DNA of 64,000 bases from Rhodospirillales bacterium (GTDB lineage Bacteria > Pseudomonadota > Alphaproteobacteria > Acetobacterales > Acetobacteraceae). Positions 8,523 through 57,668 of the stretch are shown in pieces. The stretch spans positions 1 to 64,000 of the forward strand of contig JANXTF010000099.1 in the NCBI GenBank assembly GCA_025352565.1, given 5' to 3'. Each line of letters opens with the position of its first letter. Within the stretch, counting starts at the first letter, position 1. The position numbers were made by a program, and so were the translations under genes. The notes beneath the pieces were generated by a model, which searched no databases, was not told the origin of the DNA, and saw only the letters and a program-made list of their open reading frames with translations.

Positions 8523-9725
8523 ATGCACACGAACACGAACCTGCTGCCGCGCCGCGCCGTCCTGGCCGCCGCTGCGGCCCTGCCCATACTGCGCGCCTCG
8601 CCGTCGCTCGCCGCCGCCGTCAAGGCGACCGTGGGCGTAGGTCTCGTCACGGAGGGCGGAGCGATTGTAGGGGCCATGCAGTCCGGCGATCTCGCCACGA
8701 AGGCTGCGACGGAGCTCAAGACTTCGCTCGACCTCGAATTCCTCGATTTCCAGGTGCTGCTGCGGATGGTGCAAGGCATCGTGGCCGGACAAATCCAGAT
8801 CGGCATGCTCGGGTCCACGCCGATGATCCGCATGCTCGCGACGTCCAATCCGGCGATCCCGATTGCCCTCGCCGGCGGCGGCGTCAATTTTCCGCTGATG
8901 GTCAATCCCGGCTCGCCGATCCGCACATTGCAGGACCTGCCTGGCAAGGCCGTGCTGACACTGGTCGGTTCGGACCTGCATCTCGTGCTGTTGCTGATGC
9001 TGCGCGCCGAGTTCGGCCACGACGACACGAAGAAGCTTGGGATCGCAATACGCAACGCGCAGGCGATCACCGAAGTCGGCCGGCGCCAGAGCGGGATCGA
9101 TGCCATCGCCGGCAGCGAGCCGTTCGGATATGCCGCCGAGCGCACCGGCGAACTCGTGACGCTGCTGCGCGATGACGGGACCACCGGCGCGGCCTGGGAC
9201 GGGCCCGAGGGCAAGGGCGCGGGCCACAAGGTCGCCAGCTTCAAGAACACGCCGCTGGCACCCGAGGCGTACTACCCGCACCGCATTTGGTGGGCCGCCC
9301 GACGCGACTTCATCGAGCAACACCCCGACGAGGTGGCAGCCTTTCTCGCGGCCAATGCCCGCGCCGCCGAGCAGATGGCGGCGGCGCCGGTCGATAAGGT
9401 CATCGAGGTCGGAGGCTCCAAATGGGCCGGCGAGCGCGAGGACCATCGCCGCTTTGTCGAGCGTATCCTATGGCGTCGGCGCGGCTGGGCATGGGCCACC
9501 GAAGGCGATATCCGATCGCTGATCGTTCTGTCGTCCGTCAAGACGATCTACGAGACCGAGTTGAAGGCGGCCGACGTGCAACGCCTCGTCCGGATAGCGG
9601 CGCCAGCGGTGCGAAAAGCGTGGGAGCTGATCGGCCAAAGGCCGGCGCTCGCGGTGTTCAACGATCCCGCGGCCCCCGACGTGCGCGGCCTGCCGCTGTG
9701 GGAGGTGGACAATTGGAAACTGTGA
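8523..9725 (+). CDS. NitT/TauT-type ABC transporter substrate-binding protein
   Basis: A 400-residue periplasmic binding protein of the SsuA/TauA/NrtA class, which captures sulfonates, taurine, nitrate or similar small molecules. The N-terminus has two arginines before an alanine-rich helix (LPRRAVLAAAAALP), a Tat-like or Sec signal ending near SLAAA. The family pattern follows: FQVLLRMVQGIVAGQIQIG, then MLGSTPMI and the DLPGKAVL segment. ATG 8523 has GGGGAG 8 bases upstream. No permease or ATPase is next to it; the nearest pair of this class is at 54.0-55.7 kb. It is divergent from the sulfur-type operon and 26 bases ahead of an arylsulfatase, suggesting capture of sulfur compounds. TTGACA at 8390-8395 is a possible -35, but no convincing -10 follows. 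Confidence 0.85.
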   Translation: MHTNTNLLPRRAVLAAAAALPILRASPSLAAAVKATVGVGLVTEGGAIVGAMQSGDLATKAATELKTSLDLEFLDFQVLLRMVQGIVAGQIQIGMLGSTPMIRMLATSNPAIPIALAGGGVNFPLMVNPGSPIRTLQDLPGKAVLTLVGSDLHLVLLLMLRAEFGHDDTKKLGIAIRNAQAITEVGRRQSGIDAIAGSEPFGYAAERTGELVTLLRDDGTTGAAWDGPEGKGAGHKVASFKNTPLAPEAYYPHRIWWAARRDFIEQHPDEVAAFLAANARAAEQMAAAPVDKVIEVGGSKWAGEREDHRRFVERILWRRRGWAWATEGDIRSLIVLSSVKTIYETELKAADVQRLVRIAAPAVRKAWELIGQRPALAVFNDPAAPDVRGLPLWEVDNWKL

Positions 9726-9751
9726 CGCCGGCATCGCCCGGGGCGGCCACG

Positions 9752-11380
9752 ATGAGCGAAGCCCCGCGCGGCACAGGCGATCGCCCGAATGTGGTCCTGA
9801 TACTGGCCGACGACATGGGCTTTTCCGACCTTGGCTGTTATGGGGGCGAAATATCGACTCCGAATTTGGACGCGCTCGGGCGGTCAGGGGTCCGTTTCTC
9901 GCACTTCTACAACACGGCACGGTGCAGTCCCTCGCGTGCCTCGCTGCTCACGGGATTGCATCCTCATCAGACCGGCATTGGTGTGTTGACCAGCGACGAT
10001 CGGCCGGACGGCTATCGGGGCAACCTCAATCGGCAATGCGTCACGCTCGCGGAAATCTTGCGCGATCAGGGCTACGCCACCTGTCTTTCCGGGAAATGGC
10101 ATCTTGCGTCCGACATCCATACTCCGAACGACGCGTGGCCGACGCGCCGTGGCTTCGACACCTTCTTCGGAACCCTGGCCGGGTGCTGCAGCTATTACCA
10201 GCCCGGCACCCTCGTTCGCGGCGAACAGGACGCCTCCGCTGAAATGGCGGCGCCGGAGTTTTTCTACACCGACGCTATCGCGACCGAAGCGACCAATTTC
10301 GTCGAGGCGCATCGGCTCCCAGGGTCGCCGCCGTTCTTCCTGTATGTCGCGTTCACCGCGCCACACTGGCCGCTGCATTCTCCCGAGGCCGACATCCGCC
10401 GATATGATCACGCCTTCGACGAGGGCTGGGACGCGCTGAGGGTCGAGCGGCTGAAACGTCTGGTCGGCGAAGGCATCCTCCCGCCGGACACTGTTCTAAG
10501 CGATCGGGACCCGACGCAGCCGGCGTGGGATGAAGCCGCGGAAAAAGGCTGGCAGGCCCTGCGGATGCAAACCTACGCCGCGCAGGTCGAGCGCCTCGAC
10601 AGCGGGGTGGGCCAAATTATCGCGATGCTGAAAGAGACTGGCAAGTTCGAAAATACCTTGCTGATATTCCTCTCCGACAACGGAGCCTCGTCGGAGGACT
10701 TGCCACTATTCAGCCTGGAGAAATTCCGGGCTCGCGCGGATCTGGTGCCCGCCACAACGAAAAGCGGAGAGCCGGTTCGGATCGGCAATTCCCCCGACAT
10801 CGTTCCAGGACCAGCCGACACATATGGCAGTTACGGACGCGCCTGGGCGAACCTTTCGAACACACCGTTCCGTTTCTACAAGCGATGGGTGCACGAAGGG
10901 GGGATCGCGACGCCGCTCATCATTCACTGGCCGGGTGCCGGGCTCGATGCGGGTGCAATCGTGGACCAGCCCTTCCAACTTGTCGACGTGGTGCCGACCG
11001 TGCTCGAGGCGACCCGGTCGAGCTATCCTCTCAGATCCGTGGGCTGGCCGATCGACGACCTGGAGGGACGCAGCATGTTGGGCGCACTTCGGGGCGAGGT
11101 GTCCGATCCTGTCCCGCTATTCTGGGAACACACCGGGAATGCGGCGATCAGGCTTGGGAAATGGAAACTTGTCCGCGAATATCCAGGCGATTGGGAACTA
11201 TACGACCTTGAAAAGGACCGCACCGAGACGAGCGATCTTGCCACGGAGAAGCTTCACATCGTGGCGAGCCTGAGCAGGCAGTGGCAGGAATGGGCGGACC
11301 GGGTTGGCGTGGTGCCGTGGGAGACGATTTTGCGGATTTATCACGAGCGCGGCATGGAGGACATCGAAGCGGCCGGATAG
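9752..11380 (+). CDS. Arylsulfatase (type I, formylglycine class)
   Basis: A 542-residue sulfatase that hydrolyses sulfate esters. The diagnostic C-x-P-S-R is Cys58-Ser-Pro-Ser-Arg62, where the Cys is converted to formylglycine. The metal-binding ADD sits at residues 19-21, GKWHL and FLSDNG are present in order, and the C-terminal subdomain ends with WELYDLEKDRTE, as in bacterial arylsulfatases. ATG 9752 was chosen; GTG 9722, touching the stop of the preceding gene, would add ten residues. No signal peptide is evident, so it may be cytoplasmic, meaning the upstream binding protein would bring in the sulfate ester or a product. No formylglycine-generating enzyme is in view. Confidence 0.92.
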   Translation: MSEAPRGTGDRPNVVLILADDMGFSDLGCYGGEISTPNLDALGRSGVRFSHFYNTARCSPSRASLLTGLHPHQTGIGVLTSDDRPDGYRGNLNRQCVTLAEILRDQGYATCLSGKWHLASDIHTPNDAWPTRRGFDTFFGTLAGCCSYYQPGTLVRGEQDASAEMAAPEFFYTDAIATEATNFVEAHRLPGSPPFFLYVAFTAPHWPLHSPEADIRRYDHAFDEGWDALRVERLKRLVGEGILPPDTVLSDRDPTQPAWDEAAEKGWQALRMQTYAAQVERLDSGVGQIIAMLKETGKFENTLLIFLSDNGASSEDLPLFSLEKFRARADLVPATTKSGEPVRIGNSPDIVPGPADTYGSYGRAWANLSNTPFRFYKRWVHEGGIATPLIIHWPGAGLDAGAIVDQPFQLVDVVPTVLEATRSSYPLRSVGWPIDDLEGRSMLGALRGEVSDPVPLFWEHTGNAAIRLGKWKLVREYPGDWELYDLEKDRTETSDLATEKLHIVASLSRQWQEWADRVGVVPWETILRIYHERGMEDIEAAG

Positions 11381-49546: not shown

Positions 49547-49623
49547 TGGCAGGGGTGGAGGGTCTCGAACTCTCAACCTCCGGTTTTGGAGACCGGCGCT
49601 CTAGCCAATTGAGCTACACCCCT
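49547..49623 (-). tRNA. tRNA-Trp (CCA anticodon)
   Basis: Read on the minus strand, a full cloverleaf forms. The 7-bp acceptor stem is AGGGGTG with CACCCCT, the D arm contains AGCTCAATTGGCTAGAGC, the anticodon loop is CTCCAAA giving CCA, and the T arm contains GTTCGAGAC. Discriminator G and an encoded CCA tail follow. It precedes secE-nusG, as in many bacteria. Confidence 0.97.
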
Positions 49624-50092
49624 GCATCGCCAAGCACCCGGGCGGGCCCCAGGATGCGTGAAGCATTGCGCTGCCTGAAACCCGGGTCTGGGTCGGCTAG
49701 AAAGATCGCCGGGGCGCGGATGTCAAGTCTGGTGGCCTCGCGCGCGTGCGGTGAACCGCCGCGGGCGGTCGGCCGCCGGGCGGCTCGGAGCGGCGCTTTC
49801 CAGGAGCAGTGGGGAGGCGAACCACGACGGGGCACCGGTCGGATCACATTAACTTTCGTGCAAAAACTCAATAAACCAATGTATTTCCTACTCAATATCC
49901 CATTATGTGCAACTTTAATTGATCAAATTTTTTACTTGGCATGAAGTCAGCCGCGACATACCACAAAACTACATGGATTAAAAAAAACATATTGACGCGT
50001 TATTAACGCTATATTGACAGTAATGATATTGCGCCACCATCTCATCATGGGGTAACTGTTTTCTCAGGCAATCATGCCATGGAGTATCTCCC
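49624..50092. other. Intergenic region with an AT-rich block
   Basis: The left part (to about 49850) is GC-rich and shows no gene. From about 49850 to 50070 the composition turns clearly AT-rich, unlike the rest of the window. It holds A- and T-runs, the palindrome at 49997-50009 and the ATATTGAC repeats. No convincing open frame was found; it is probably the promoter region of the peptide gene at 50093. Confidence 0.6.
49989..50018. promoter_or_regulatory. Palindrome framed by direct repeats, candidate operator
   Basis: GCGTTATTAACGC (49997-50009) is a perfect 13-base palindrome. The octamer ATATTGAC occurs on both sides, at 49989-49996 and 50011-50018, 22 bases apart, about two helix turns. 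The site is 75 bases before the peptide start codon. Confidence 0.5.
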
Positions 50093-50248
50093 ATGTCTCA
50101 GGTGAATTCTTCCGTCGCGACCCAGGCTGCGACGACCGAAATGCGCGCCACCCCTGTTATCTCTGCGCCGACTGCCCAGACGACGTCGCGCGACAGCGTG
50201 AAGGATCAAGGCCGGGTGCATGTTGGCGGCGCGTTCATTCGTTTCTGA
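50093..50248 (+). CDS. 51-residue peptide of unknown function
   Basis: An open frame of 51 codons with GGAG 8 bases before its ATG. The peptide is rich in Ser, Thr, Ala and Gln up to residue 31, then charged (SRDSVKDQGR), and ends VHVGGAFIRF. It has no Cys, no hydrophobic signal and no lysine-rich part. I do not recognise it. A modest-size leader-plus-core layout is imaginable, with the last ten residues as core, but nothing proves this. It is 55 bases ahead of the DUF6065-like gene on the same strand, so the two probably share a transcript. Confidence 0.55.
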   Translation: MSQVNSSVATQAATTEMRATPVISAPTAQTTSRDSVKDQGRVHVGGAFIRF

Positions 50249-50303
50249 GCATTGCGGTCGGCCGCCTCTTGTGTGATGCGTTGCAGGCGCGCAAGGGGCG
50301 GAC

Positions 50304-51089
50304 ATGACCCACGCGAACATCGTTGAGTTTTGTCGTCTGATCCCGCAGGCGAGGCAGCCAAAACGAGCGGAGCGGTCGGCCGCTGGATACCTGCCAAGTC
50401 GCGGCATGCGTTATTGCGATGCTTTGACGTCGGCCACCGGGTATGGCTACTGGGTGTTTCCGCCAATAGATCTCCGCCTCCTTTGGGATGGCGAGCAGAT
50501 CATTTGGTCGTACGGCGAAGATGAAACATGGATTCCACTGAGCGGCACCGGCAGCGGCGCCGCTCAGTTTCCCAACTATGCTGCTATTTTTGACGAGGCG
50601 GTCCCAGAAAACCTTCGCGGTTTCTCTCCCCCCTTTATAACAGCGATGCCGGAGTTGGGCGGGGTTCAAATATGGACAGGCCTTCTCGCAAGAACCCGTC
50701 CGGGATGGAGCTTGACCGTGCGTGCGCCGGTAAATCTGCCAGCCATCCCGGGCCTGTCGGGTTGGGAGGGGATCATTGAGACCGACATATGGTTCGGCCC
50801 CTTGTTCACGAACGTCCGACTCACGAGAACCAACGTGCCCGTCCATATCCGGGCGCATACCCCATTTCTCCAGGTCCAGCCGATTCCGCAGGTGGCTTAC
50901 CGCGAGGAAACCTTGGCGGCGTTCTCCTGCATCGAGGCCGCAGCGCTCACAACTCACGACTGGGATCGGCTGGGCGAAGTGCTTCTTCCGCATCCCGATC
51001 AGGAGGTTCGTCAAGGCGCCTACGCGGTTGCAGTGCGAAAGCGTCGGCTGTGTCCCGTCCATCCGGCGGCGCTGTTCGACGCTCCTTGA
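50304..51089 (+). CDS. DUF6065-like protein
   Basis: A 261-residue soluble protein without signal or membrane segments, unusually rich in Trp, Pro and aromatic residues. Features include the N-terminal RLIPQARQPKRAERSAAG, GYGYWVFPPIDLRLLWDG, FSPPFITAMPELGGVQIWTG, IIETDIWFGPLFTNVRLTRT and HTPFLQVQPIPQV. From memory this pattern fits the uncharacterised DUF6065 family; a profile search would confirm it. No catalytic motif is obvious. ATG 50304 has AAGGGG 6 bases upstream. Base use is less GC-rich than in neighbours, suggesting transfer. It follows a peptide gene and is convergent with a TolB/TPR protein. Confidence 0.6.
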   Translation: MTHANIVEFCRLIPQARQPKRAERSAAGYLPSRGMRYCDALTSATGYGYWVFPPIDLRLLWDGEQIIWSYGEDETWIPLSGTGSGAAQFPNYAAIFDEAVPENLRGFSPPFITAMPELGGVQIWTGLLARTRPGWSLTVRAPVNLPAIPGLSGWEGIIETDIWFGPLFTNVRLTRTNVPVHIRAHTPFLQVQPIPQVAYREETLAAFSCIEAAALTTHDWDRLGEVLLPHPDQEVRQGAYAVAVRKRRLCPVHPAALFDAP

Positions 51090-51110
51090 GGCAGCGCCAA
51101 GCCTCATTGC

Positions 51111-52532
51111 TTACCCCCACGGAGTGCCCGCACGTTTCAGGCCCTCAACGTAAAAATCGTGGTCGCGAGGCCGCAGAGGCGCGCGCGACACGATTTTGGC
51201 CACCGTCACATCAGATTCGATCGTCCGCAGCATTGCCAGACACTCTTCGGCTTCCGCCGGTCGATTCAGATGCCCGAGGATGGCCAGGCGGATGTTAAGC
51301 GCAGAGGCATGGCCCGCGTTGCGGGCCAGGACAATCTCCGAAAGCAGCTCCGCTTCGTCGAGGCGTCGGTCAAAGAAATACGCCGACATCAGGACGTGCT
51401 CGGTGAAGAAAATGTGGGGATCCCGAGGCGACAATGACTGGGACATGAGCGCATGATGGATCGCCGTCGCGTGCTCACCATTGTAAATCTTTGAAGCGCA
51501 GCTCAATGTCCACGCGATCGGTAGATTTGGATTCAGCTTGATGGCTTGCGCGTGCATGATGATCGCGCTCGGTACATCGTGAAACAGATACGCCTTGACG
51601 TGTCCCGCGATGGCGATTGCGCGCGCGTCCAGCGGGTCCAGTTCCACCGCGCGCGCCGCAGCGGCGCCGGCCAGGGTGGTGACGTCGCGCGGACGCTCCA
51701 CCCAGCCTTGCCCCACGGCCATGATGCACCAATAGGCCATCCAGGTGTGCGCGGCGGCATAATTGCGGTCGAGTTCGATCGCGCGCGCCAGCAGGTCCCG
51801 TGCCCGCATGAACTGCAGCCGGTCGAGCCGGAAAATGCTGTGGATCGCGGTCAGCACGGAGTGATGCGCCGCCGCGACCTCCGTTGTGGCCGGTGGCTCG
51901 AACGCCGAGATGCGTTGGAACAGCTCCGGATCGACCTGGGCCACCGTTTCCGAGGCGATGCGGCTTTGCAGGGAGAACAGGTCGTTCATCGAGCCGTCGA
52001 ACCGCCCCGACCAGATCACCTCGAAATCCAGCACCACGTCGAGCAGGGTGACGCTCACCCGGATCGCGTCGCCGATGACCTGGATCGTGCCGTCGATGAT
52101 GTAGTCGAGCGCGTAGGTCCGGCTGCGCCCGAGGGCGTCGGCGGCTTGGCCGGTGCCGTCCCAGAACGTGGCCGAGGCGACCAGCCGGGGCGCGCGGAAG
52201 CGGGACAGCGCGCCGGAGATTTCCTCGGCCATCCCGAGTGCCATTCCGTAGCCGACCGGCGCGCCGGTGTTGCGGAACGGCAGCACCGCCATCCGCCAGC
52301 CCAGCTGATGCATCGGGATTTCGGCGCCGGCCGAGAGCACCTGCGGGAAACGCCCCAGCCGCGCGGCCTCGATCGTGCTGAGACTTTCCTTGATCGCGCG
52401 CAGAGCCCGCGGCTCGCGGCTGTCCGGCGGCGGGTTCATCCGCGCGTCACCAGACCACGGCGGCCGTGCGGCGGGGGGCGATGCGATGGCGGATTTGGAG
52501 CCTCCACTGAGTTTTGCCTGCCGGCCTGTCAC
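51111..52532 (-). CDS. TolB-N-like and TPR-repeat protein
   Basis: A protein of up to 473 residues. The first part (about 75-200) resembles the TolB N-terminal-like domain found before TPR repeats in adenylate-cyclase and regulator proteins: MAVLPFRNTG, GMAEEISGALSRF and DYIIDGTIQVIGDAIRVSV. The rest is helical repeats of TPR type (LLARAIELDRNYAAAHTWMAYW, AVELDPLDARAIAIAGHV, AIKLNPNLPIAWTLSCA). The DNA-binding or cyclase domain that usually precedes TolB-N is missing, so it may be a truncated or adaptor form. The start is uncertain: GTG 52532 or ATG 52439. It is convergent with the DUF6065-like gene at 22 bases. Confidence 0.7.
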   Translation of the reverse strand: MTGRQAKLSGGSKSAIASPPAARPPWSGDARMNPPPDSREPRALRAIKESLSTIEAARLGRFPQVLSAGAEIPMHQLGWRMAVLPFRNTGAPVGYGMALGMAEEISGALSRFRAPRLVASATFWDGTGQAADALGRSRTYALDYIIDGTIQVIGDAIRVSVTLLDVVLDFEVIWSGRFDGSMNDLFSLQSRIASETVAQVDPELFQRISAFEPPATTEVAAAHHSVLTAIHSIFRLDRLQFMRARDLLARAIELDRNYAAAHTWMAYWCIMAVGQGWVERPRDVTTLAGAAAARAVELDPLDARAIAIAGHVKAYLFHDVPSAIIMHAQAIKLNPNLPIAWTLSCASKIYNGEHATAIHHALMSQSLSPRDPHIFFTEHVLMSAYFFDRRLDEAELLSEIVLARNAGHASALNIRLAILGHLNRPAEAEECLAMLRTIESDVTVAKIVSRAPLRPRDHDFYVEGLKRAGTPWG

Positions 52533-52630: not shown

Positions 52631-53818
52631 TTGACGATCCCGCCCGCGTCTCGCCGGTTCACCGTGGTGCTGGGCCTGTTCGCGGCGCTGCCGGCGCTGT
52701 CGATCGACATCAGCGCGCCCTCGCTGGTGCTGCTGCCGGCCGCGTTGGGCACGACGGCGATGGTGGCCGGCCTCACCTTGTCGCTGTTCATGGCGGGTTT
52801 CGCGCTGGGCCAGCTCGGCGGCGGGCTCCTGTCGGACCGCCACGGACGGCGGCCGGTGCTGCTGGCGGGCCTCGCCTGCTATTCGCTCGCCGGAATCGCC
52901 TGCGCGCTCGCCCCCACCGGGGGGATGCTGGTGCTCGCGCGCTGCGTGCAGGGCATCGGCGCGGGGGCGTGCTCGGTTCAGGCGTTCGCGATGGTGCAGG
53001 ATCTGTTCGAGGGGGGGGCCGCGCGCAGCAAGCGGTCCTATGTCACGGTCGTGTTCGGCGTCGTGCCGATGTTCGCGCCCGCGCTCGGGTCGGTGCTGTC
53101 CGATTTGGCCGGCTGGCGGGCCGTGCATGCCAGCCTGGCCATCGCGGGCGGCCTGCTGCTGGCGGTGGCCCACGCGGGCGTCGCCGAAAGCCGGCGCGCG
53201 CGGCCCCCTGCTTCGCACCCTCAGGGCGAGCCCCGTCGGACGGTGATGCGGCGGGATGCCGCGTTCGTCGGTTTGACCGCGGCGAACGCGCTCAGCTATG
53301 CGTGCGTGTTCGCCTATGTCGCGGGCGCGCCGATCGTCATTATCGGCCAACTCGGCTGGTCGCCCGCGGTGTTCGCCGGGGTCTTTGCCGTGATTGCCGC
53401 GTCCCTGACGGCCGGGGCCTGGACCAGCGGCCGGCTCGGCCGCCGGGGCGTCGGCGCGGCGGCGCTGCTCGGCCCGGCCCTCGCCGGCTCGGCCGCCGGG
53501 GCCGGCCTGTTGGCGGCCGCCAGCGTCATGGGGGTGGCCTCCGGCGCCGTGCTGGTCCCGTTGATGCTCGTGGTCGCGTTCGCGCGCGGTATCATCGCGC
53601 CGAACCTGCAGCATCTCGCGATCGAAAGGCGGCGGGAACAGGCGGGTGTCGCCTCGGCCGTGGTGGGCGTGTCGCAACTCCTGGCCGGTGCGGCGGCAAG
53701 TGCCATCGTGGCAGCACTCCTGGCCCCCCTCGGCGCCACGGCGGTCGCGCTGCCGATGGCGATCCTCTCGGCCGCCGCGCTGGTGGTGGGGCGGGCCAGC
53801 CTCCGCCGCAGAGTATAG
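52631..53818 (+). CDS. MFS drug-efflux transporter, Bcr/CflA type
   Basis: A 395-residue major facilitator with 12 predicted helices. The loop 2-3 motif GGLLSDRHGRRPVLLAG and the motif C-like GVVPMFAPALGSVL mark a drug/H+ antiporter of the 12-helix class. The opening ALPALSIDISAPSL is typical of Bcr/CflA proteins. The likely role is export of small amphipathic compounds. The start is TTG 52631 without a strong ribosome site; no better in-frame start was found. It is divergent from the TPR protein. Confidence 0.88.
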   Translation: MTIPPASRRFTVVLGLFAALPALSIDISAPSLVLLPAALGTTAMVAGLTLSLFMAGFALGQLGGGLLSDRHGRRPVLLAGLACYSLAGIACALAPTGGMLVLARCVQGIGAGACSVQAFAMVQDLFEGGAARSKRSYVTVVFGVVPMFAPALGSVLSDLAGWRAVHASLAIAGGLLLAVAHAGVAESRRARPPASHPQGEPRRTVMRRDAAFVGLTAANALSYACVFAYVAGAPIVIIGQLGWSPAVFAGVFAVIAASLTAGAWTSGRLGRRGVGAAALLGPALAGSAAGAGLLAAASVMGVASGAVLVPLMLVVAFARGIIAPNLQHLAIERRREQAGVASAVVGVSQLLAGAAASAIVAALLAPLGATAVALPMAILSAAALVVGRASLRRRV

Positions 53819-57335: not shown

Positions 57336-57668
57336 GCGCCAATCCTGTCGATTCTGTTACCAGCGAGGGATTGGGTAGCCTCCGTGCTCCGCGCCTGACA
57401 ATCCTGAAATCACGAATTGTAGCGAAACCTTTCAATTCTCGCGGATCGGGCACCGGTTGGCCCGAACAATACGGAACTTCTTCCTAATAACGCGTCCGTG
57501 ATACGTGGGTGTTGCAAACACATCAACCGATTGTTGCCTCAATACAACAGGCAAATCGTAATGAGCTGTAAGTCAATTGATGTAATGAATTGTCTGCGTG
57601 ACAAAAAGCCCGCGCGAACGGCCCCTTCCACCTTCGCAAAAGGGACCGATGCTGCCGGCGTACGGTCG
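57336..57668. other. Intergenic region upstream of the CHAP gene
   Basis: A 333-base gap, AT-rich between about 57440 and 57610. It probably contains the promoter of the CHAP gene (read leftwards) and the 3' end of the ridA message. No open frame with coding character, RNA gene or clear terminator was seen. Confidence 0.6.

Follow-up and report, generated by a model that had tools for sequence, protein, structure and literature searches.

A family of tandem-bead peptides encoded upstream of divergent DUF6065 proteins with a predicted dUTPase fold

Why should an unannotated 51-residue open reading frame (ORF) lie directly in front of a DUF6065 gene, at the end of an AT-rich stretch of an alphaproteobacterial contig? 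The window, by which we mean the whole 64,000-nucleotide stretch of DNA analysed, carries the peptide gene at 50093..50248 on the forward strand, with a Shine-Dalgarno GGAG read from the sequence at 50081..50084. The DUF6065 gene (50304..51089, forward strand, 261 aa) begins after a gap of exactly 55 bases, and a TPR gene (51111..52532) faces it from the reverse strand. This is the arrangement given in the preliminary description, save that the gap between the last two genes measured 21 bases and not 22. An MFS transporter gene of the Bcr/CflA type follows at 52631..53818 on the forward strand (TIGR00710 above cut-off); it clusters with, and holds the same place as, a gene in a same-genus genome. 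A tRNA (49550-49623) lies beside the module.

The leader, the bead peptide and its pairing with DUF6065

The promoter-like leader of the peptide gene (49850..50092, forward strand) has 36.6% G+C, as against 68.3% over the whole window. Of all 200-base windows in the 64 kb, the eight poorest in G+C begin within 49801-49941, so that the leader was rightly singled out as the clear AT-rich stretch. Its composition had also been taken as foreign and the locus as a transferred island. The AT-rich part is merely the ~240 bases before the peptide, and such a leader is common to relatives: it is equally low in the same-genus relative (37.4% G+C over 350 nt), and at 83 of 93 loci (window included) the G+C of the 250 bases that precede the bead ORF falls below that of the whole locus. 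Since, in addition, the same-genus genome keeps this gene order as far as the MFS gene and DUF6065 occurs widely across the host's family, we have dropped the island reading. Insertion at a tRNA was rejected as well, because a tRNA of any kind occurred in only 8 of the 60 related loci scanned and adjacency is thus not a rule. No match to the sigma-70 consensus, which leaves other promoter types uncovered, was observed in the leader, and Rfam at gathering scores returned tRNA only.

The peptide of the window ends in a single bead, DQGRVHVGGAFIRF (50204..50245, forward strand), of 14 residues up to the stop, which fits the motif D..x[VIL]..G[GA]. The same-genus relative has a homologue at the matching place, with two beads (KDSGRVHVGGLAIRYDSIKDAGRVHVGGLAIKF). 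The peptide of the window belongs to a large and conserved family of bacterial peptides that has no name so far. An ORF with the motif DxxxVxxG[GA] was observed just upstream of divergent DUF6065 at 104 of 127 loci, these being the unique divergent loci whose upstream sequence reached 400 nt or more (of 141 unique loci, 14 fell short and were dropped). The same motif turned up on the reverse strand at 14/127, downstream at 5/119 and ahead of canonical DUF6065 at 6/58. Two or more copies were present at 81/127 divergent loci vs 11/127 on the reverse strand, 0/119 downstream and 1/58 before canonical DUF6065, the 11 reverse-strand cases with the strict motif being partly the antisense of the bead arrays themselves. 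The strict motif fails at 23 of the 127 divergent loci, most of which were explained. Among the 60 canonical DUF6065 loci scanned for repeated motifs, none showed a paired bead peptide. A similar small ORF near other DUF6065 genes, the check proposed in the preliminary description, is therefore found for the divergent subfamily and not for canonical DUF6065. At the level of genomes, over the 60 common to both searches, the bead profile matched exactly the 16 with a full-length divergent DUF6065 and none of the 44 others (Fisher 7e-15). One genome has the peptide and the regulator on one contig and the DUF6065 gene on another. An SD-like start was observed for 72 of the 90 bead ORFs, that of the window among them. 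The pairing and the translation signals fit a short, translated precursor encoded next to a conserved gene for an enzyme-like protein, an arrangement looked for in ribosomally synthesised, modified peptides (RiPPs), and the proposal that peptide and DUF6065 form a genuine system is borne out for the divergent subfamily by this family-wide evidence.

Beads often stand in tandem, at ~14 residues each (e.g. DAGKVRLGGFAPTL), in 1 to at least 19 copies per peptide, joined by linkers that vary in length and number; the peptide is nearly leaderless. The commonest distance from the motif Asp to the end of the ORF was 14 residues (42/104 loci). Comparison of adjacent units in 77 arrays gave pN 0.099 vs pS 0.316, which shows selection on the bead. 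Between adjacent beads of an array, positions 8, 9, 10 and 11 differ in 0, 2, 6 and 12% of pairs, whereas between loci they differ in 50, 74, 86 and 60%. Being uniform within an array yet diverse between loci, these four positions make up a locus-specific core, and follow an evolutionary regime of their own as a RiPP core might, a pattern that gene conversion could also explain. Elsewhere in the bead there is more variation within arrays, at 28-41% for positions 1 and 3 and the linker and at 29 and 27% for positions 12 and 13. The bead tail is not hypervariable, and SPAF/APTL-like tails recur across several groups. Bead type tracks the DUF6065 tree (9 changes vs a shuffled mean of 34.1), and the core differs even between close relatives. 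Gene conversion is an alternative origin for homogeneous arrays in general.

The DUF6065 protein, the regulator and the neighbouring genes

The DUF6065 protein of the window scored 40 bits against Pfam PF19541 (cut-off 26.6), with the match confined to residues 122-199. In the divergent subfamily C38, G48, W124, R140, N144, G156 and G165 are strictly conserved (134/134 proteins) and E159 is Glu in 132/134. An AlphaFold model of the window protein reached a mean pLDDT of 79.7 and a pTM of 0.72. When predicted models from two loci were compared with the PDB, the best 50 rows listed by Foldseek and by VIA were all dUTPases; VIA placed first a match with Z 11.7 and rmsd 5.4 over 129 residues, and second one with Z 11.6 and rmsd 2.9 over 119, in a list occupied by one fold that leaves room for other folds. 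The best matches in BFVD were uncharacterised phage proteins and unnamed entries, followed by named dUTPases. A profile comparison with 12 true dUTPases was weak (probability 0.8%, E 0.068), with motifs II-IV in register; the kinship therefore rests on the predicted fold. PF00692 gave no match to the window protein at E up to 1, and the DUF6065 profile found no dUTPase among PDB sequences, its three matches being noise (best E 0.15).

The signature residues of dUTPases are mostly missing. Motif I ([AS][AG].D[LFVI]) was found in 3 of 134 divergent proteins vs 12/12 true dUTPases, and motif II (RSG/RSS), by a loose pattern, in 35/134 vs 12/12; at the place of motif II, Arg140 is kept in 134/134 and the aligned Ser is replaced. 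Motif III with the catalytic Asp (G.[IV]D.[DG][YFW].G) occurs in 0/134, an acidic variant, G..[ED].[DS].[WY]FG, being present in 131/134, and the C-terminal motif V (GFGST-like) in 0/134 vs 12/12. Divergent DUF6065 is thus predicted, on the strength of these models, to be a dUTPase-fold protein, and it lacks motif I, the catalytic Asp of motif III and motif V.

A SARP/BTAD-TPR regulator is the usual third gene of the module. Of the 76 loci flanked by 3 kb of sequence on each side, 62 have it within 5 kb, in 49 cases divergent upstream, and 14 have none within that distance. BTAD was above cut-off in the three full-length relatives scanned and was not found in the TPR proteins of the window or of the same-genus relative. 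In the window protein the profile match begins at 206 of 669, the N-terminal ~200 profile positions being absent, and the protein clusters with full-length regulators. On this comparison it is a remnant of the usual regulator, minus the DNA-binding half, and not as an unrelated neighbour. Of its first naming as a TolB-N/TPR protein, the TPR ORF stands; its TPR matches lie below the Pfam cut-offs, and a match of TolB/FlgO type, always under the cut-off, came up in just two of the four relatives scanned.

The system was found in Acetobacteraceae, in two further alphaproteobacterial families and on Rhizobium plasmids. Cultivated carriers include Rhodopila globiformis DSM 161 and Rhizobium sp. SRDI969. 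On one of the Rhizobium plasmids, peptide, DUF6065 and MFS genes, in this order, form an operon with a 4-base overlap. The MFS protein of the window may be an exporter for the system. No protease, exporter, importer or known maturase was a constant neighbour among the neighbour clusters. TldD/E is known to mature the RiPP microcin B17, and a TldD metallopeptidase gene lies upstream on the same strand at 10 of the 102 loci that extend 2 kb in that direction. One further locus, which is cut, has it as well. We rejected TldD as a dedicated protease: matches in 36 of 40 relatives mark a general gene, and neither the window's own genome nor the same-genus genome has a TldD/E match, which means that the system in these two cannot depend on it. 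In Sinorhizobium, the neighbourhood of a diverged DUF6065 includes an amidohydrolase, an S8 peptidase and a protein resembling NHLP-clan precursors (36.9 bits, cut-off 40).

Possible roles of the bead peptide

Of the roles floated in the preliminary description (signalling, modified peptide or defence) we favour a modified peptide. We hypothesise that the dUTPase-fold DUF6065 protein binds and works on the bead peptide, as its dedicated substrate or ligand, within a RiPP-like module of three genes, namely the SARP/BTAD-TPR regulator, the peptide of ~14-residue beads and divergent DUF6065; we hold this reading to fall only a little short of probable. DUF6065 would recognise the constant half of the bead, DxG[KR]V[RH]xG, and positions 8-11 would form the locus-specific core of a nearly leaderless, multi-core precursor. 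The former nucleotide pocket would serve peptide chemistry, the product would be exported (by the MFS protein in Rhizobium), and the regulator would govern production. In a bolder form, which we offer more tentatively, an enzyme of dUTPase fold that has lost nucleotide catalysis modifies or assembles the tandem 14-residue beads, giving a new class of ribosomal peptide system in which the locus-specific core shifts in step along the whole array from one close species to the next. Docking of the bead on DUF6065 was unsupported in the one model tried. This was an AlphaFold monomer of a natural peptide-DUF6065 read-through, built from an alignment of 54 rows (8 of 16 prepared read-through loci and 46 DUF6065-only), in which the beads had no confident structure (block pLDDT 34-47). 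Also weighing against our reading are the near absence of a leader, the inconstancy of any protease, exporter or known maturase nearby, the recurrent bead tails, the genome with peptide and DUF6065 on separate contigs and the loci that fail the strict motif; the Rhizobium operon, the TldD neighbours and the Sinorhizobium neighbourhood speak for it.

It is rather unlikely that the bead is instead a linear binding motif, the peptide acting as a multivalent scaffold or inhibitor that clusters a trimeric DUF6065 or gates its pocket in the manner of Stl. Linkers of variable length and number would suit such a role, as would the best fold matches, which are trimeric dUTPases, and dUTPase-binding inhibitor proteins such as Stl are known, as far as the excerpts available to us describe them. 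The tracking of the DUF6065 tree by bead type fits too, but co-inheritance alone would give the same. Against this stand the read-through model, the one tried, which supports no docking, and a copy number that falls to one, as in the window; a scaffold by itself also leaves the core differences between close relatives unexplained.

RRNPP receptors are peptide receptors, and multicopy pheromone precursors exist; by analogy, the TPR part of the regulator could be sensing the bead as a signal, with DUF6065 helping to make or destroy it. The frequent regulator gene and the homogeneous arrays, whose cores differ between close species as in such pheromone precursors, lend this some appeal. We nevertheless regard it as improbable, given the 14 loci without a regulator in reach, a regulator that has lost its DNA-binding half both in the window and in its same-genus relative, the commonness of TPRs and the inconstancy of any exporter or importer. 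A toxin-antitoxin or phage-defence pair would account for a small protein beside a partner with a nucleotide-enzyme fold, but is highly improbable: PADLOC (2023 library) gave noise-level matches only (E 0.027 and 0.05), tblastn found no relative in phage records, no mobile-element gene family was seen, judged by eye, among the neighbour clusters common to at least 4 of 81 loci, and repeat arrays are unusual in antitoxins. That the peptide ORF is a chance frame of coincidental resemblance has next to no likelihood, for although it holds a single bead and missed E 0.001 in the bead-profile search of its own genome, the two-bead homologue in the same place, the SD site and the family-wide controls argue that it is more than chance.

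Comparison with known systems

A 51-residue ORF that had no annotation and an uncharacterised domain can now be treated as one widespread, well-defined system of peptide and partner that lends itself to testing. To our knowledge, pairing with a repeat peptide would put the dUTPase fold to a use not seen before. The arrays, with 1 to at least 19 copies and a core locked within each array and changing between species, offer a natural experiment on peptide-partner specificity. Among the papers available to us none names DUF6065, and further searches brought up nothing recognised as a bead-DUF6065 system, judging by titles and the openings of abstracts. One published cluster of Acetobacteraceae includes, by its description, a radical SAM enzyme; the part of that report available to us shows no link to the system (PMC12350317).

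The window protein is above cut-off for canonical DUF6065 (PF19541) and has R-x-C, GW and G..E.DW in common, by eye, with four of its members; unlike these, the divergent subfamily is matched over 78 residues only and is bead-paired. With trimeric dUTPases (PF00692) DUF6065 shares the predicted fold and, in a weak alignment, the register of motifs II-IV, but it lacks motif I, the catalytic Asp and motif V, and its chain is longer. Searches for a RiPP maturase family returned DUF6065 only in Pfam and nothing in NCBIfam, and we know of no dUTPase fold among RiPP enzymes, nor of any peptide-modifying enzyme with this fold. The full-length relatives of the regulator resemble SARP/BTAD and HilA-like TPR regulators in a BTAD above cut-off, a weak Trans_reg_C and TPRs, from which the window copy departs by its absent N-terminal ~200 profile positions. 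Stl and other dUTPase-binding proteins, in the excerpts available to us, offer the precedent of a protein partner for a dUTPase-fold protein; Stl itself represses by binding DNA and contains no beads, and is set apart here by description. Closest in layout are the multi-core RiPP precursors of cyanobactins, graspetides and dikaritins, which likewise have tandem, near-identical units in a short ORF beside an enzyme-like gene, and from which the bead peptide differs in having hardly any leader and no constant maturase or protease.

The peptide gene and its repeat family

In the window, an AT-rich leader (49850-50092; 36.6% G+C) is followed by a 51-aa peptide ORF, which starts with ATG and carries GGAG 8 bases ahead of the start. 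After 55 bases comes a 261-aa DUF6065 ORF and, 21 bases further on, a TPR ORF on the opposite strand. The gene trio and the 55-base gap agree with the preliminary description, but the gap between the DUF6065 and TPR genes, noted there as 22 bases, is one base shorter. A second, weaker low-G+C pocket lies at 57401-57600 (45.5% over 200 bases), and a tRNA and nusG/secE-like genes, named by eye, were also seen within the window. The window DUF6065 protein scores above the Pfam cut-off and has its nearest named relatives in Rhodospirillales/Acetobacteraceae assemblies, while the peptide found no match in Pfam or NCBIfam.

Using the window DUF6065 protein as query against 60 relatives, we found 16 genomes with full-length matches, among them the window's own, which carries a paralogue, and 2 others in which the matches were short and weak. 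The DNA upstream of the matched genes contained short ORFs sharing one repeat, here called the bead, which upstream of the paralogue reads MNKINTAIDLATLDAGRVRVGAGYKLLPSVPASVKDAGRVKVGAGYNLLPRA. The same-genus genome carries two beads at the place of the window's one, locus L115 has a complete ORF of fourteen units, and 17 to 19 units were counted at L221, L110 and L246, where contig ends or N runs truncate the arrays.

In order to determine how regularly the two genes are paired, we pooled 161 loci (the window, 20 from the search of 60 relatives, 60 from a PF19541 family search and 80 named relatives); removal of duplicates left 141, and of 14 with less than 400 nt upstream, 127. An upstream ORF with the motif D..x[VIL]..G[GA] was present in 104 of the 127 loci with divergent DUF6065 (the PF19541 subfamily that includes the window protein), as against 14/127 on the reverse strand, 5/119 downstream and 6/58 upstream of canonical DUF6065, where five of the six matches lay in frames of at least 129 residues and one was a 16-residue ORF. 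The small ORF expected beside other DUF6065 genes is thus found with the divergent genes but not with the canonical ones, and no repeated bead motif was found alongside the canonical loci L041-L100. With at least two motif copies and no start codon required, the counts were 81/127 upstream, 11/127 reverse, 0/119 downstream and 1/58 canonical; with at least two copies of a relaxed motif, 80/127, 2/127, 0/119 and 0/58. When the proteins were clustered, the motif accompanied 77 of the 93 testable clusters at a 90% identity threshold, and 31 of 36 at 70%. The same-genus locus L022 is counted among the 104 through a spurious frame, yet its peptide is really there. Among the 23 loci missed by the strict motif, 13 were seen by eye to carry a relaxed form (GS, GN, Asp-less, masked, or with a cut start: L119, L122, L140, L152, L195, L197, L218, L232, L236, L238, L239, L242, L245) and two, L023 and L116, have bead profile matches upstream on the same strand; L025, L105, L120, L136, L139, L142, L153 and L156 had neither motif nor a profile match upstream.

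The bead profile, built from 26 two-bead stretches, was found in 18 of 80 genomes. For the 60 genomes common to both searches, those with the profile and those with full-length divergent DUF6065 were the same 16, and the remaining 44 gave no profile match. G065 and G069, the other two carriers, each have a PF19541 match, and in G065 this gene adjoins the peptide. Three apparent orphan peptides (G014:C50, G020:C183, G033:C36) lie on contigs that end inside the array; contig ends within bead arrays were recorded at L296, L298 and L299. Since assemblies break in the arrays, neighbouring pairs are probably undercounted. The pair can also be split: in G014 the peptide and regulator lie on one contig (L297), of which the 13 kb taken yielded no DUF6065, and DUF6065 on another (L025). 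The window's one-bead peptide misses E 0.001 in the profile search, and its family membership rests on synteny and likeness to the same-genus copy (12/17 bead residues, by eye).

Bead anatomy and selection

SD-like starts were observed in 72 of 90 usable bead ORFs, and the signal preceded 69/127 in-frame ATGs against 77/862 nearby out-of-frame start codons. Adjacent units in 77 arrays gave pS 0.316 and pN 0.099. Between the window and its same-genus copy, DUF6065 gave pS 0.81 and pN 0.15 (259 codons); the single short bead pair gave 7.0 synonymous differences over 12.7 sites and 9.0 non-synonymous over 38.3. The two peptides show no likeness in their N-terminal parts.

We analysed 360 units (283 distinct), in which D0, V/I/L4, G7 and G/A8 are imposed by the search motif; outside it, the residues that stood out among the distinct units were R5 (83%) and G2 (79%). 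The commonest spacing was 17 residues (107), followed by 18 and 19, and in 42/104 loci the last motif began 14 residues before the ORF end; the bead therefore comprises about 14 residues and the remainder is linker. Counting only motif-matching units, 0, 2, 6 and 12% of adjacent pairs in the 77 arrays differed at positions 8, 9, 10 and 11, whereas between loci 50, 74, 86 and 60% differed. Within arrays, the linker and positions 1 and 3 showed 28-41% differences, and positions 12 and 13 showed 29 and 27%. An array therefore tends to change its core as a whole, as in one clade of eight close relatives, several named Neoroseomonas or Roseomonas, with cores GAGMR, GAGIR, GAGVR and GAGLR. Such uniformity could arise if identity is selected for, or if gene conversion acts on the core alone; the variable linkers favour selection. 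Classed by position 11 as P, R or other, the bead type requires 9 changes on the DUF6065 tree (94 rows) against 34.1 when shuffled; linkage by itself would give the same.

Predicted DUF6065 fold and neighbouring genes

The AlphaFold model of the window protein (19-row alignment) had a mean pLDDT of 79.7 and a pTM of 0.72. Foldseek returned 70 PDB matches at E <=0.001, of which the best 50 were all dUTPases (top E 2.9e-5); the best 50 rows of a VIA-align search, again all dUTPases, ranged in Z from 11.7 (rmsd 5.4 over 129) to 10.9. A model from a second locus (54 rows; DUF6065 part mostly >90) again matched dUTPases. In BFVD (model ma723e0e4cb2a), the closest entries were uncharacterised Caudovirales proteins and unnamed entries of 200-290 aa, ahead of named dUTPases, and phage relatives of the predicted fold are possible.

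We compared 134 divergent DUF6065 proteins with 12 true dUTPases. Motif I was present in 3/134, and catalytic-Asp motif III and motif V in none, against 12/12 dUTPases for each; an acidic variant of motif III occurred in 131/134 and a loose motif II pattern in 35/134. C38, G48, W124, G126, R140, N144, G156, G165 and P187 are invariant in all 134, and N170 and R172 (133), E155 and E159 (132), E117 (131), D161 (129) and Q190 (124) nearly so. With these residues conserved and the dUTPase motifs gone, the pocket is probably retained in rebuilt form. Judged from the motifs, dUTP hydrolysis is unlikely; an ordinary dUTPase was additionally present in 24 of 25 genomes searched. R-x-C, GW and G..E.DW also occur in canonical DUF6065 (L041-L100; four read by eye), and from these shared residues the whole of PF19541 may have the dUTPase fold.

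Among 76 loci with 3 kb of flanking sequence on each side, 62 encode a wHTH-BTAD-TPR family protein no more than 5 kb away (49 upstream and divergent, 13 downstream), and BTAD scored above cut-off in all three full-length regulators scanned (L021, L038, L027). In the window and L022 the regulator is reduced to its TPR half, convergent to DUF6065; matches in L189, L192, L195, L197, L198 and L119 likewise start at 222-232 of 669. Besides the regulator, no gene family occurred in more than 9/81 loci, except array antisense frames (14). One family in 9/81 is TldD (identified by Pfam at L033 and L034). Once more loci were added, 10 of the 102 that extend 2 kb upstream, and one cut locus besides, carried this gene ahead of the array in the same orientation (L033, L034, L035, L115, L118, L149, L159, L217, L221, L248, L252). 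At L299, another TldD locus, the next gene is the housekeeping CtaA. Microcin B17 is matured by TldD/E, and TldD beside the arrays hints faintly at a RiPP; against this, TldD/E matched in 36 of 40 relatives, with no match in the window's own or the same-genus genome. In 9/81 loci (L021, at 9260-9835, L024, L027, L028, L030, L038, L114, L133, L146), the region downstream of DUF6065 encodes a protein that looks receiver-like by eye; the L021 copy has no Pfam match.

Distribution and possible function

PF19541, canonical and divergent together, was found in 144 of 397 Acetobacteraceae genomes and in 46 of the 385 genomes of a class-wide sample. A phylum sample of 398 genomes yielded a full-length divergent match in the window's own genome alone, with weak matches (<=38.6 bits) in 13 more. 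Nine weak matches of the class sample were examined further. Three genomes of another family, f41, encode full-length divergent DUF6065 scoring 369-376 bits, and their peptides have 2-4 beads like KVRLGNMSPAF; f41 may be Sneathiella's family, since the Sneathiella-labelled L218 carries the same bead. One genome of a third family, f66, has a 364-bit protein and ten units like KVKLGMMAPAF, and no full-length relative was found in the remaining five. Two Rhizobium plasmids encode a 36.6% identical DUF6065 relative, with an annotated hypothetical protein of three beads (D[AD]G[NKR]VHIANKSP[AM]F) 16 bases upstream; directly downstream, SRDI969 has an MFS transporter gene (4-base overlap), where WSM4643 has two hypothetical ORFs. 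Alike beads in four groups point to an old pair or repeated transfer. On the Sinorhizobium medicae plasmid pMl1 (L330, 501-8865), typed conjugative, a diverged DUF6065 gene overlaps that of a 169-aa hypothetical protein. About 3 kb away lies an NHLP-clan (Os1348/Frankia-peptide-like) precursor-like protein, below cut-off, with amidohydrolase, SAM methyltransferase and S8 peptidase genes nearby; this is possibly a separate peptide cluster.

We tentatively favour, at somewhat less than even chances, a RiPP-like scheme in which the bead peptide would be acted on as a substrate by the dUTPase-fold DUF6065. The dedicated pairing, enzyme-like invariance, locus-specific cores, Rhizobium transporter and TldD at some loci point this way, as does the Sinorhizobium gene near a precursor-like protein, amidohydrolase and S8 peptidase. 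Against it count the near lack of a leader, the lack of constant maturation genes, a TldD-less window genome and beads without confident structure in the AlphaFold model. From co-inheritance we infer contact and chemistry, both putative. That the peptide is instead a multivalent binding partner of DUF6065 ranks lower and seems rather unlikely to us; that it is a signal sensed by the regulator's TPR ranks below both and is improbable.

Bead peptides tried were covered by no Pfam or NCBIfam family, an eight-bead peptide giving NCBIfam matches far under cut-offs, on its repeats. No paper naming DUF6065 was found in a search whose scope excluded most subscription journals and the bioRxiv collection. 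Divergent DUF6065 proteins are alike dUTPases in predicted fold, but the motifs I, catalytic-Asp III and V of those enzymes are largely gone. Precursors with tandem cores are a known kind; to our knowledge, none has a dUTPase-fold partner.
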